This document shows positions 16,927 through 23,966 of a stretch of 64,000 bases of DNA, piece after piece. The notes under the pieces are model-generated. The model made no database searches. It was not told the DNA's origin and saw only the letters and a program-made list of their open reading frames with translations. Made by a program: the position numbers and the translations under genes. This stretch comes from Nannochloropsis oceanica (lineage: Eukaryota > Sar > Eustigmatophyceae > Eustigmatales > Monodopsidaceae), in contig CP038131.1 of assembly GCA_004519485.1 (NCBI GenBank), positions 688,501-752,500 on the forward strand. Reading direction: 5' to 3'. The number at the start of each line of letters is the position of its first letter. Position 1 is the stretch's first letter.

Positions 16927-18153
16927 GGAGAGCGGATAAAGGAAGACAAGAGGGCGAGAGTGACAGGAAATGTGAGTGGAGAAGAACTGTGCCTGTCGGT
17001 GAATAGAAAGGGGAATATTTTTGGATGGAGGGATGCACGAAGACCATGGCAGGCGAGGCAGAGGCTAATGAAACTGCGCATAAAGGAAGGAAGGGAAACA
17101 GAAGCAGCAGCCGGACAGCGGCAGGATTAAGAATAATCGAGGGTGAGATGGTAAATGGTGGTCGTCAGATTTCTATACATACAGCAATCCAACCATAGTG
17201 TCGAAATGTTTTGTGCAAGCAATAATCAACCTCATCCAAAAAGATAAGCTACAAACGAAGAAAAAGGCGGTGATGGACCGAGAACGATACAAGACAGAAG
17301 ACGAAAGAGAAGACGAAAGAGAAGAAAAGGAGGTGAAGAGAAAAAGAAGGAAAACAGCACGGAATATTTGTTCGCAGTCCAGGTTAAGTCGACCATTGTC
17401 TTCTCTCCTCTTTGTTTAGTTCTATGGTTCTTTTGATAGCACCCGAGTTCTTTTGATTGCACCCTCCGGGGGGGCTTCTTATGGCGAGCGCCGAAGCAGG
17501 CCGAGTGTGTCGAGACCCACACACATTTTATGTGAGAATGGTGGGTGGGCTCTTCTTTTCCCGGCACCCACACCTCCCTTCTCCTCCTCCTCATCCTCCT
17601 CCGAAGGTGGCGGAAACTAAGCGTCTCTCCCAAGGCTTGCATAAGGGCCTTAAGTGTGTGAACGTTATTTCTTCCAACTGCTCGATCCAACTAGACGGCA
17701 GCGCAAGCGAAAAATGCAATCCACACGACGGTGCAAAGACATGACTCTCGTCAAAATAAAAGGCATTCATGTTTATACCTAAGAGAGAAAGCAAACTGTG
17801 TGCAAACGAAAAAGATAAGGCGAAAGCCTCGTCGCTGTGCTGTCCGTCTGTTAGGCCGTGCATTCGCGCAGAAAACTGGCCTGTGCGCAGAAAATGAGGT
17901 ACACACATCCACCACAGAGATCCTTCTGCCATGACGCTTTAACTGGCACGTCCAAACCACAAAGCCACTTGCCTGCGTGAGACCTCGCTGGAGCTAACCA
18001 AGTGTCCCCTCCCCTCCTGTGCCACCCACCCGCGCATCACATCCACCTCCTGCCCCCCATCCTCATCTTCCCTACACAGGCATAAAGGAGACCCGTCTCC
18101 TTCCGTTTTACGACCTTCACCACCTCATCCCACCCCAGACAAACCATTCAGCC
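16927..18153. other. No recognisable gene; promoter of FtsZ at the right end
   Basis: The frames here are short and lack motifs. A small direct repeat, TTCTTTTGATAGCACCC and TTCTTTTGATTGCACCC, lies at about 17430-17465. The FtsZ 5' UTR lies before 18154; an open frame continues upstream but has no ATG. Confidence 0.5.
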
Positions 18154-19635
18154 ATGAAGGTACAAGCAACCCTCTTCCTGGGTGCGGCAATTGCTACTAC
18201 CACTACCACCACCGTGGCCTTCCTCGTCCCCGCCCCTATCTCTCACTCTAGCCTCCTCTCAAGAACAACAAGTTCCTTCACCGGCGCGGCCACGGGCGCA
18301 AGCCGCACGAGCGCCCGACAAGGCACCAACCAGTCTCGTCTATTTGCTCAGTCCACGACGAACACGGAGCTGCATATGTCTTTGCAGCCCGAGGGTGGGG
18401 GACTGCCCTGCCAGATCAAGGTAATGGGAGTAGGCGGCGCAGGCGGCAACGCCGTGAACCGGATGATTGAGGAGTCTGTGGCCGGCGTGGAGTTCTGGGC
18501 GATCAACACGGACGCCCAGGCGTTGAAGTCGCACAAGGCAGAAAAGAAGCTGAACATTGGACAGCAGGTGACGAGGGGATTAGGTGCGGGTGGGATTCCT
18601 GACATTGGTCGACGGGCCGCTGAAGAGAGCAGGGCCGAGATCGCAGATGCTGTGAAGGGGGCGGATTTGGTATTTGTGACGGCGGGGATGGGAGGGGGGA
18701 CGGGTTCGGGTGCTGCGCCGGTTGTGGCGGAGGTGGCGAAGGAGATGGGGGCGCTGACAATCGGTGTTGTGACAAAGCCGTTTCAGTTCGAGGGACGCAG
18801 GAGGTTGAACCAGGCCACGATGGCCATTGAGGAGTTGGGCAAGGCGGTGGACACATTGATTGTGGTGAGCAACGACAAGTTGTTGCAGATCATCGAGCAG
18901 AACACACCGTTGGACAAGGCGTTCAAGGTCGCTGATGATATTTTGCGAAATGGCGTGGTCGGGATTACCGAGATCATTGTAAGGCCTGGTTTAATTAATG
19001 TCGATTTTGCCGATGTCCGCTCCATCATGGGCAACGCCGGCACGGCTCTCATGGGGATGGGTGAGGGTGTAGGGAAATCCCGCGCGGTCGAGGCGGCGGC
19101 GGCAGCGATTTCTAGTCCGTTGCTGGAGTTCCCTGTGAACAACGCTAAGGGGATTGTGTTTAACATTATGGGCGGCCCGGATATGACGCTGCAGGAGATC
19201 AACTTGGCGAGTAATTACATCTACGACAACGTGGACCCGAACGCGAACATTATCTTTGGGGCGTTGGTGGATGAGAAATTGGGCGACAAGGTCCGAATCA
19301 CGGTTTTGGCGACTGGTTTTGACAACGCCGGCAAGAGCAGCAGCACCAGCAGCACCCTGCCCCTGACGGTCGGGAAGAAGGACTCCGCTTCCAAGCAACA
19401 GCAGTCCCCCTCCTCCTCTTCCTCGTCCAGTAGCCTATCTACGACTGCCGCAGGAGCCGCGGCTGCTGCCAATGCGCGACAGCAGCAGATGGATGACGAC
19501 CTTGCTTTGAGCGAGGATCGCCTTCCTGCCCGCCCCAAGGAGCCTGTTTACCAGCAGCAGCCACCACCCCCTCCCCCTGCCCAGCAAGCCCCCCAGCAAG
19601 ACCAAAGCTTTCTGCAAAGCTTCCGACGGATGTAA
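18154..19635 (+). CDS. FtsZ: Plastid cell-division GTPase FtsZ
   Basis: Tubulin-like GTPase of 493 residues that forms the plastid division ring inside the organelle. The start is the ATG at 18154 ([20 protein letters not shown]); it opens a signal peptide ending near VAFLVPAP, an A-F junction. A Ser/Thr/Arg-rich transit peptide follows, as in algae with secondary plastids. The FtsZ core starts near residue 88 ([17 protein letters not shown]). It carries the GTP-binding signature [20 protein letters not shown] near residue 180 and the catalytic T7-loop sequence [11 protein letters not shown] near residue 282. The C-terminal domain runs to VLATGFDN, then a Ser/Gln/Ala/Pro-rich linker and the tail [11 protein letters not shown]. 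That tail lacks the usual FtsA/ZipA/ARC6-type DxPxFLR consensus. The gene has no intron. It is most like the alphaproteobacterial-independent, cyanobacterial/red-plastid FtsZ type; a mitochondrial FtsZ is the alternative, but the leader argues against it. Confidence 0.94.
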
Positions 19636-21139: not shown

Positions 21140-22828
21140 TCATTTCACTTCCCTCCCCGCTTCCTCCTTTGGCTTTCGAGTGCTATCGCGCAACCATTGA
21201 AGATATTCATCCCCCCCTCCTACAATGCCTGCCGCTATCGTCTCGGGCACTTCATAGGAATGATGCTTGAGGACAAACGCTGACAGCTCACCTAACAGGC
21301 TCCCCCGTGTTTTTGCCATCATCAATACCTCTCCACTTCGTTCGACCTTTCCCTCCCATTTGTAGACGGACTCGATGTTAGGCACCAGATTGACGCATGC
21401 CGCCAGGTCGTGATGTACGAGGCCCTCTGCGAGCTTGGCTGCTTCGGCGGGGTTAGGGGCAGTTATCCAGACAACGACAAACTCAGGGTGTTGGGGTGAA
21501 GTGGTCCCCGTGCTCGTGCCTGTGTGAGTTGGACCGCTGGTGCGTCCTGTGGCCTCATCAGATGGAGTAGCGGTGGAGATGGAAGAGGGAGGGAGGAACA
21601 CTGGCGTGGGAGTCAAGGACTTGTGGATTATGTCCTCGCCGCCTGTCCCTCTCTCCCCCCCTCCCTCGGCCCCTTCCTCGTCCCAGCCCTCGATCTCGAC
21701 AAATTGACGGATGCCCTGATACGCCGGCAAATGCTCTTCATCCAAGCGGTATTGAACCTTCATTTTAGGAGGCACGAAGCGTCCGCCTAGGTAGTGGCGG
21801 CCCCGGAAGAATGCAGCGCATCTTTTGGGCGCCGTGAGGGAGACGAGGGCCTCGGGCATGAAGCTAGTGTGATAGACGTCGCCTTGCTCGACATCCCACC
21901 CTGCATAATTGACATGGTGGTTCGGAGAATTAAAGGTGGGTTGAACGATTTGTTAATGAGTAGGTGTGACTGAATGCCATGGCCCTCCCTCCCTCCTCTC
22001 CCTTCCTCCCTCCCTCCTTCCCTCATTACCTGACGGGATATCCACCGACACAATGGGCGTAGTAATCTCGGTTAGCCTCTGCATGATCGCATCGAATGGC
22101 GCCCGTAATGCCCCCTTCGTTCCGAAGCCAAACAAGGCATCTATGACACAATCGAACCTGCCCTCGATATCCCCTGGGAGTTCCACCCCCACCTCCACCC
22201 CCAGGTCCTCGCACTGCTTGACCAAGTTGACGAACAAAGGCTTGTTCGATCGCTTCGGATAGACAACCACAGGACAGTACCCAAGATGAAACAAATGACG
22301 CGCAGCCACTAGACCATCGCCTCCGTTATTTCCCGGCCCGCAGAGAATGAGGATGGAGGCAGACCGGGCGGGTTGTTGGAGGAAGTGGTCGACAGCATGG
22401 GAGACCGACAAGCCTGCTAGCTCCATTAGTTGATCGACGGAGAAACCAGGAGTGCTCATTAACTCTTCGTCTATGGCTTGAGCTTCTTTTTGGGTGAGAA
22501 GTGTGATGCGCTGTCGCCAGGAGAAGAAAGGGGGAGAGGGGGAGGACGGGTCGGAGGAGGGTTCCATGGCGATATTGCTGTTGCTGTGAACTGGACCGAT
22601 CGAAAAGGATCGACACGTGCCTCTGCTCCTGCTGGGGGTAGTGGCCTCTTCCTTCCGTGTGGCGGCGGCAACGGCTAGCGTGGCGGACGAGGATAGGACA
22701 CGGAGGGAGCCCCAAGACAAGGAGGGGGTCAGGAACGTGATGGAGTGGTGATGTAGAGGACGAGAAGCCTTCGAAGAATGGGAAATTGATGCCAACAAAA
22801 GTTGTACGAGATGTGTCCGGCTCCTCAT
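21140..22828 (-). CDS. NAD(P)H-hydrate epimerase (YjeF_N) fused to CutA
   Basis: Two exons, 22828-22030 and 21900-21140 (donor GTAATG, acceptor ATGCAG, phase 1), encode 519 residues. After a Ser/His/Arg-rich leader (about 100 residues, possibly organellar) comes the YjeF_N fold. It includes TQKEAQAIDEELM, FSVDQLMELAGLSVSHAV, the nucleotide-binding CGPGNNGGDGLVAARHLFHLG, DALFGFG, and SVDIPSG-WDVEQG, which spans the exon junction. This enzyme interconverts the R and S forms of damaged NAD(P)HX so that the partner dehydratase can repair them. The same exon continues through an acidic and Thr/Ser-rich linker (about residues 350-405) into a complete CutA domain: FVVVWITAPNPAEAAKLAEG, LAACVNLVPNIESVYKWEGK, VLMMAKTR, and HHSYEVPETIAAGIVGGGDEYLQWL. 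CutA trimerises and has been linked to copper tolerance, though its role is unclear. The fusion is described under findings. Confidence 0.9.
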
Positions 22829-23086
22829 TCAACTGTATGGTATGAATATGAACGAGGAGTTTGTGAGTGTGTTTGAAGGGCAGGGGTGAAGCCGCTTAGA
22901 ACAAATAGCACTAGTAGTTGATGGGGCATATGATGACGATTGGAGCCTGAGGGCGGGCTTTGCCTTGCCACCGGAGGCCACAAAAGCGACATGCACAACC
23001 CTTTAATCAACACCAGCACTCAAATCCCTCCATCCTCTTCCTACGCACATCCGTAGACCTCTTCGTTCGCTTCAACGCAAGCCACC
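22829..23086. promoter_or_regulatory. Divergent promoter region between epimerase-CutA and the secretory ubiquitin
   Basis: These 258 bases separate two start codons on opposite strands, so both promoters must lie here or overlap the 5' UTRs. No clear TATA box was identified. Confidence 0.5.
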
Positions 23087-23966
23087 ATGGTCTCAAGAAG
23101 CAGTAAGTCCAAAAGCCTCCAGGTCCTGGTGATGCTGGTCCTCGCCTCCCTTATCCACACGTCCTCAGCCGCCATGGGCATGTCCCCGGGCCTGTTTTGC
23201 ACCGTCCGTGGTGGAACACAACAGCCATCCGCCTTTCAACGCCTCATGAGCGTCCGGGGTGGCATGCAGGTACGTCATGTGCCTTGTTGGGTGGATTGGA
23301 GAGGAGGAAAAGGGAGGGAGGACGGGGCTGGGGCAAGGGATGGGCTGGGGCAGACCCGGTTGAGAGTGTATGCGGAGAGTAAGCAAATGGCTGTGTACAT
23401 CAACACATTATCTTAGGTCATGTGATGATGACCAGGGAGGGTTGTGGTTGGCTCCGCGGGACGCAGGCTCAGGATCAGTGCACATTTGGTATGGCATCAT
23501 CACATGCAACATACGAGAGAAAGGCACATATGGATCTGAATGGAGGAAATTCTGCGCGGCAGGTTAAGAACTCAAAACGTGGCTGCTGTGGTCTGTTTCA
23601 CACCCCACTTCGCATCCATCGATGACCTTTTGAACCCTTAGAATCCTTGTCTTCCACGTCCACCCATATGCCCCGTCCCTCCTATCTCAACCCCTCCCCC
23701 TCCTTCTCTCTCCCCTTGCCCCATAGATTAATGTCAAGACTCTGAACGGTAAGACCATTTCGGTGGATGTGGAAGAGGGTGATAGCATTGATGAAGTCAA
23801 GGCCAAAATTGCTGAGAAGGAGGGAATCCCCCCTGACCAGCAACGTCTTATTTTTGGGGGAAAACAGCTGGATGGGCTGAAAAGCCTATCTGATTATGAT
23901 ATTGGTGACGATTCAACGTTGCATTTGGTGTTGCGATTGCGTGGGGGATGGGCATTTGGACGGTGA
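23087..23966 (+). CDS. Ubiquitin with secretory/plastid leader (sUBI/PUBL-like, SELMA)
   Basis: Two exons, 23087-23269 and 23727-23966 (donor GTACGT, acceptor CCATAG, phase 0), encode 140 residues. Residues 1-28 form a signal peptide (hydrophobic [18 protein letters not shown]). A 31-residue linker containing two RGG motifs ends SVRGG directly before the ubiquitin Met. The 76-residue ubiquitin fold aligns without gaps to canonical ubiquitin and ends [10 protein letters not shown]. Lys6, 11, 27, 29, 33 and 48 and the Leu8/Ile44/Val70 patch are kept, but Phe4 is Asn and Lys63 is Asp. Five residues (WAFGR) follow Gly76 and would be trimmed. Algae with red secondary plastids use such a ubiquitin in the periplastid space with a symbiont-derived ERAD-like translocon (SELMA) to import plastid proteins. 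Location is inferred from the leader; the transit part has no Phe right at the predicted cleavage site, as expected for periplastid residents. Confidence 0.87.

Follow-up and report, generated by a model that had tools for sequence, protein, structure and literature searches.

An NAD(P)HX Epimerase Fused to CutA in a Single Reading Frame in Nannochloropsis oceanica and Other Ochrophytes

The Gene and Its Surroundings

The window, the whole stretch of 64,000 nucleotides of Nannochloropsis oceanica DNA analysed here, carries on its minus strand a gene of two exons. Its spliced frame comprises 519 residues, contains no internal stop, ends at position 21140, and joins, in this order, a presequence, a complete YjeF_N domain (NAD(P)HX epimerase; NAXE), a linker, and a complete CutA domain. 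The features are as follows:

22030..22828, minus strand: exon 1, coding for the presequence and the initial three quarters of YjeF_N (NAXE) (spliced translation, Pfam)
21901..22029, minus strand: intron of 129 nt, GT...AG, with an in-frame stop if unspliced
21140..21900, minus strand: exon 2, end of the YjeF_N domain, linker, CutA, and stop in a single open frame
22568..22828, minus strand: presequence (residues 1-87), preceding the second in-frame Met (Met88)
21818..22435 (intron included), minus strand: YjeF_N / NAD(P)HX epimerase domain (residues 132-294; Pfam E 5.3e-40)
21824..21826, minus strand: Lys292 (Lys205 of P0001), equivalent of the catalytic K192 of E. coli YjeF
21500..21646, minus strand: low-confidence linker (residues 352-400; AlphaFold2 pLDDT <50 at 265-283 and 285-313 of P0001)
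21185..21478, minus strand: CutA domain (residues 408-505; Pfam E 6.8e-32)
22829..23086, no strand: 258 bp separating Met1 of the fusion from the initiation codon of a divergent gene with a ubiquitin domain

The coordinates, strand, and exon structure that an initial annotation had assigned to 21140..22828 are borne out by the spliced translation. As it had also stated, the second exon opens inside the motif SVDIPSG/WDVEQG, whose glycine codon is split by the intron (exon 1 ends in TCA-G at 22030, and GG-TGG opens exon 2 at 21900), and translation and Pfam place in this exon a complete CutA domain without an internal stop. The YjeF_N match covers positions 2-169 of the 169 positions of the profile and the CutA1 match positions 1-98 of 99; Pfam detects no domain other than these two in the protein, which thus differs, as had been proposed, from the plant fusion with PPOX and from the bacterial one with NAXD. 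The linker had been described as rich in Thr, Ser, and Glu, a description that holds for the first two residues and not for the third, since the 53 residues preceding CutA comprise 12 Thr and 8 Ser, together with 8 Pro and 6 Gly in place of Glu, which occurs just twice; the acidic part of the interdomain region lies upstream of this segment. An NCBI record from N. oceanica (P0001; 432 amino acids) is 100% identical to the 519-residue frame and begins at its Met88. A six-frame search, exon by exon, of the 29.3-Mb assembly yielded one CutA and one YjeF_N match genome-wide, both of them in the fusion gene on contig C5; the NAXD dehydratase is encoded on contig C8.

The divergent neighbour on the plus strand (23087-23269 and 23727-23966) consists of a signal-peptide-like exon and, past an intron, a ubiquitin domain (Pfam E 1.7e-27), and resembles the periplastid (SELMA) ubiquitin of diatoms. 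On the same strand, an FtsZ gene at 18151-19635, with the Pfam domains Tubulin/FtsZ GTPase and FtsZ_C and a long N-terminal extension, probably encodes a plastid FtsZ.

Conservation and Fold of the Two Halves

The lysine at the position equivalent to K192 of E. coli YjeF (K205 of P0001) is present in 67 of 67 aligned rows. The available part of the E. coli study, whose text and mutagenic primer served to locate this position, reports that replacement of K192 by alanine costs the enzyme at least 95% of its activity as an epimerase (PMC5938422). In the CutA half, the five aromatic residues that an excerpt of the work on SIB1-CutA1 gives as conserved at the subunit interface (Tyr45, Trp47, Tyr81, Tyr98, Trp101; PMC3004244) are all present in the N. 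oceanica fusion with unchanged spacing, and they are retained in 55-57 of the 57 fused rows. Stand-alone CutA proteins have 16 positions with a conservation of at least 95%; the N. oceanica fusion retains every one of them, and their conservation in the other fused rows lies between 0.79 and 1.00. When fused and stand-alone proteins are compared column by column, conservation correlates with a rho of 0.86 for CutA (98 columns) and of 0.91 for NAXE (213 columns). The AlphaFold2 monomer model of P0001 has a mean pLDDT of 85.6 and a disordered linker. Foldseek relates its epimerase half to mouse AIBP (2dg2; TM 0.92) and yeast YNL200c (1jzt; TM 0.89), and its CutA half to rice CutA (2zom) and human CUTA (1xk8; TM 0.94-0.95 for both), all TM scores being normalised to the target. 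The protein is a genuine joining, by a flexible linker, of an epimerase with intact active-site residues to a complete CutA, and both halves look working in sequence and model.

It might be argued that CutA serves here as a mere trimerisation tag that confers stability or avidity, its ligand pocket being no longer important. CutA trimers are described as very stable in the excerpt at hand (PMC3004244), and, to judge from the titles of the papers concerned, trimers with the CutA fold serve as building blocks of designed cages; the retention of all 16 conserved CutA positions, beyond the interface aromatics, speaks against this explanation, which we consider distinctly improbable.

Distribution of the Fusion among Ochrophytes

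Our own domain scan of the best 120 of 2072 homologues found both domains in 73 and YjeF_N alone in 47. Among the matches listed, the epimerase precedes CutA in 73 of the 73 fused proteins, both domains are long in 58 of them, and the linker measures between 8 and 117 residues. Named fused records come from at least eight ochrophyte lineages, and wherever the taxonomy was looked up, the organism was an ochrophyte: Nannochloropsis (Eustigmatophyceae), Heterosigma (Raphidophyceae), Chrysoparadoxa, Rhizochromulina (Dictyochophyceae), Ochromonadaceae, Spumella, and Ochromonas (Chrysophyceae), Pinguiococcus (Pinguiophyceae), Triparma (Bolidophyceae), and Phaeothamnion (Phaeothamniophyceae), the CutA part of the last being incomplete.

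These records bear directly on the question of whether two adjacent genes have been read as one through an artefact of the assembly or of the gene model. That the data contain no transcript of the N. oceanica locus itself leaves some room for such a reading. Against it stand the occurrence of the same fusion in many independent records, the single continuous exon that carries both the end of YjeF_N and the entire CutA, and the absence of a second CutA or YjeF_N match from the assembly. Four of the fused records (P0010, P0018, P0033, P0046) bear MMETSP transcriptome names; these are transcriptome ORFs, and the fusion is therefore transcribed as a single frame in those species. Two separate genes in close relatives, which the initial annotation had named as the contrary case, were not encountered, the closest full-length homologues among the matches listed being fused. 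In view of the fused relatives and the sole copies in the assembly, we reject the artefact as hardly credible; the one-frame NAXE-CutA fusion of N. oceanica is confirmed.

The named epimerase-only records among the matches listed include brown algae (Scytosiphon, Ectocarpus, and P0113, by its tag presumably Undaria), two diatoms (Cylindrotheca and Pseudo-nitzschia delicatissima), and dinoflagellates. In some ochrophytes, the epimerase can do without CutA. The figure of 47 out of 120 overstates the loss of CutA because some of the records with an epimerase alone, P0005 and P0111 among them, are probably fragments. No stand-alone ochrophyte CutA was recognised among the named records within the best 120 of 7998 matches, most of which lack names, so that brown algae and diatoms may yet have one.

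Several homologues depart from the common architecture. A WW domain lies between YjeF_N and CutA in P0018 (residues 291-314; 29.0 bits, above the Pfam cut-off), and P0091 contains a candidate WW domain (residues 316-339; 15.2 bits) below that cut-off. By eye, the epimerase of P0096 is followed by a degenerate CutA-like tail at the C-terminus, in which Pfam finds no CutA even at E 1; it is possible that P0096 is a decayed fusion. In the epimerase-only proteins P0082, P0102, and P0110, CutA is replaced by an acidic C-terminal tail with a repeated W-E-x-x-Y-x-A-Y motif, to which no Pfam family corresponds at cut-off.

Evolutionary Origin and Genomic Neighbourhood

A NAXE tree was computed by a quick method from those 107 of the 120 rows that were long enough; after removal of 8 near-identical ones, it comprised 99 rows (57 fused, 42 alone). 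The fused label undergoes 10 changes on this tree versus a mean of 32 on shuffled labels, with many branches being weakly supported and some of the rows counted as alone being fragments; 10 changes therefore require several losses or truncated gene models. The brown algae adjoin the fused Chrysoparadoxa (support 85), and a clade with diatom records adjoins the fused Triparma (support 88). A CutA tree was built from 127 rows and 102 columns, with 11 of the 81 stand-alone rows and near-identical rows left out. In an AU test on it, neither a single clade of the fused rows (p-AU 0.477) nor a deliberately wrong union (p-AU 0.303) was rejected. Read from these sequences, the distribution would most simply reflect a single origin of the fusion early in the ochrophytes and a later loss of CutA from the brown algae and the diatoms.

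In bacteria, a YjeF_N ORF was found near CutA in 0 of 80 loci (flanks of up to 8 kb per side, shorter at contig ends), and the same profile recovered 10 of 10 known YjeF_N loci in a control; YjeF_N was present somewhere in the genome in 25 of the 26 genomes searched, which account for 26 of the 80 CutA loci. This result speaks against a universal link between CutA and NAXE. Searching genome contigs with the fusion protein as the query detected no relative.

A functional tie between the two proteins, as initially suggested, is supported, not proven, by the fact that eight ochrophyte lineages retain the pair with conservation of both halves. That the tie is obligatory is made less likely by the NAXE proteins that lack CutA in brown algae and in two diatoms among the matches listed and by the lack of YjeF_N in the fetched flanks of all 80 bacterial loci. 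The same data can be read as a neutral fusion of convenience, through which two proteins of the same compartment share a promoter and a targeting signal without any mechanical or regulatory coupling. The long and variable linker (8-117 residues among the 73 fused matches listed), the loss of CutA in brown algae and diatoms, the missing bacterial neighbourhood link, and the fact that plant CutA records are named chloroplastic all fit this reading. The persistence of the fusion in eight lineages with both domains conserved argues against it, a pattern that would also be expected if each domain were needed on its own. We judge this explanation to be nearly as likely as the functional one that we develop below.

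Translation Starts and Proposed Location

The sequence context of Met1 (TGA-ATG-A) is poor, and that of Met88 (codon 22567-22565; GCC-ATG-G) is good. Translation probably starts at Met1 (22828) as well, because the 87 residues that precede Met88 can be aligned with the presequences found in three close relatives (P0002, P0003, and P0005), which are taken for eustigmatophytes and each of which has a Met near the start of the domain. Among the motifs in these presequences, SACSAFVPP (P0003) and LAFLTP (P0005) resemble the ASAFAP motif that serves plastid import in such algae; the fusion of N. oceanica has ITFLTP. It is possible that the presequence is mitochondrial.

A twin-arginine-like pattern, followed by a hydrophobic stretch and AxA, occurs in 21 of 73 presequences, compared with 4.0 on average after shuffling (none of 500 shuffles reached as many), the pattern having been picked after some cases had been inspected and the shuffles disregarding the composition of signal peptides. 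The presequences concerned include those of P0006, P0008 (Heterosigma), P0009 (Chrysoparadoxa), P0102, and P0110. Import into the thylakoid lumen is only a lead that this pattern offers.

A Possible Role for the Fusion

CutA is nearly universal and belongs to the PII-like proteins; NAXE, which takes part in the repair of damaged NADH and NADPH, is itself a dimer. Selim et al. are said to have treated CutA as a PII-like small-molecule carrier (FEBS J, 2020). Since CutA is PII-like and has a proposed carrier or signalling role, the added domain may therefore sense or hold a metabolite. CutA proteins are trimers according to the accessible text of PMC3004244. The initial annotation held that a CutA trimer would impose its own threefold arrangement on the epimerase, which is too strong a claim for a protein whose linker is predicted to be disordered and varies so widely in length among its 73 fused homologues; moreover, the YjeF_N domain of Edc3 is reported to dimerise (PMC4059234, seen in part). 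A YjeF_N dimer combined with a CutA trimer would therefore lead to hexamers or larger assemblies and not to a rigid trimer.

What we infer for the oligomer, the ligand, and the location of the fusion protein can be set out as follows. The CutA part would assemble as the usual trimer and thereby gather epimerase domains that tend to pair with each other, so that hexamers or larger particles might form; the PII-like pocket between the CutA subunits may bind a small molecule and tune or position the epimerase. The long form would be directed to the plastid by its presequence, and the short form, starting at Met88 through leaky scanning past the poor Met1, would remain cytosolic. This combination of clustering by CutA trimers, a PII-like pocket, a plastid long and a cytosolic short form, and an old ochrophyte fusion is the explanation that we tentatively prefer, at somewhat less than an even chance. 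A more specific version would make CutA a third member of NAD(P)H repair: its pocket would bind a metabolite related to nicotinamide nucleotides or vitamin B6, and an epimerase particle of hexameric or larger size in the plastid would repair or sense damaged NAD(P)H, next to a cytosolic form from the second start. We regard this version as unlikely.

The conserved ochrophyte fusion links two puzzles, namely, the role of CutA and a suspected second function of the epimerase. In the excerpts available, the functions of CutA are called not well clarified (PMC3004244), its role in metal tolerance is contested and was not supported in Synechococcus (PMC7694984), and a second function is suspected for the epimerase (PMC5938422). 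With single copies of both domains in a tractable alga, there is one gene on which the link between CutA and NAXE can be tested.

Comparison with Known Systems

The initial statement that no CutA fusion is known agrees with the searchable open-licence papers, among which we found none describing a NAXE-CutA fusion; none pairs "CutA1" with "YjeF", and those that pair "CutA" with "Nannochloropsis" look unrelated from their titles and abstracts. It does not extend to public protein records, which already hold both Pfam domains; the domain pair is thus on record, without a descriptive paper found in the open-licence literature.

Of the solved chains, stand-alone plant CutA (rice 2zom) matches best in sequence; it has the same fold and no epimerase domain. 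Edc3 resembles the N. oceanica protein in carrying YjeF_N inside a multidomain protein, and differs from it as an mRNA decapping factor without CutA; its YjeF_N domain is reported, in the part of the study available, to bind NADH and to be required for dimerisation (PMC4059234). Further parallels are the fusions of NAXE to NAXD in prokaryotes and to PPOX in plants, both described in the accessible text of PMC5938422. The prokaryotic proteins (YjeF/Nnr; TM0922, 2ax3) share the N-terminal YjeF_N with the N. oceanica fusion, but their partner is the dehydratase (Carb_kinase), whereas NAXD is encoded on another contig in N. oceanica. Arabidopsis At5g49970, like the ochrophyte protein, joins NAXE to a second conserved protein, and this plant fusion has been taken as a functional hint (PMC5938422, in part); the partner there is an oxidase of vitamin B6 salvage, whereas it is CutA here. 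The ochrophyte protein hence represents a third kind of epimerase fusion, with NAXD as the partner in prokaryotes, PPOX in plants, and CutA in ochrophytes.
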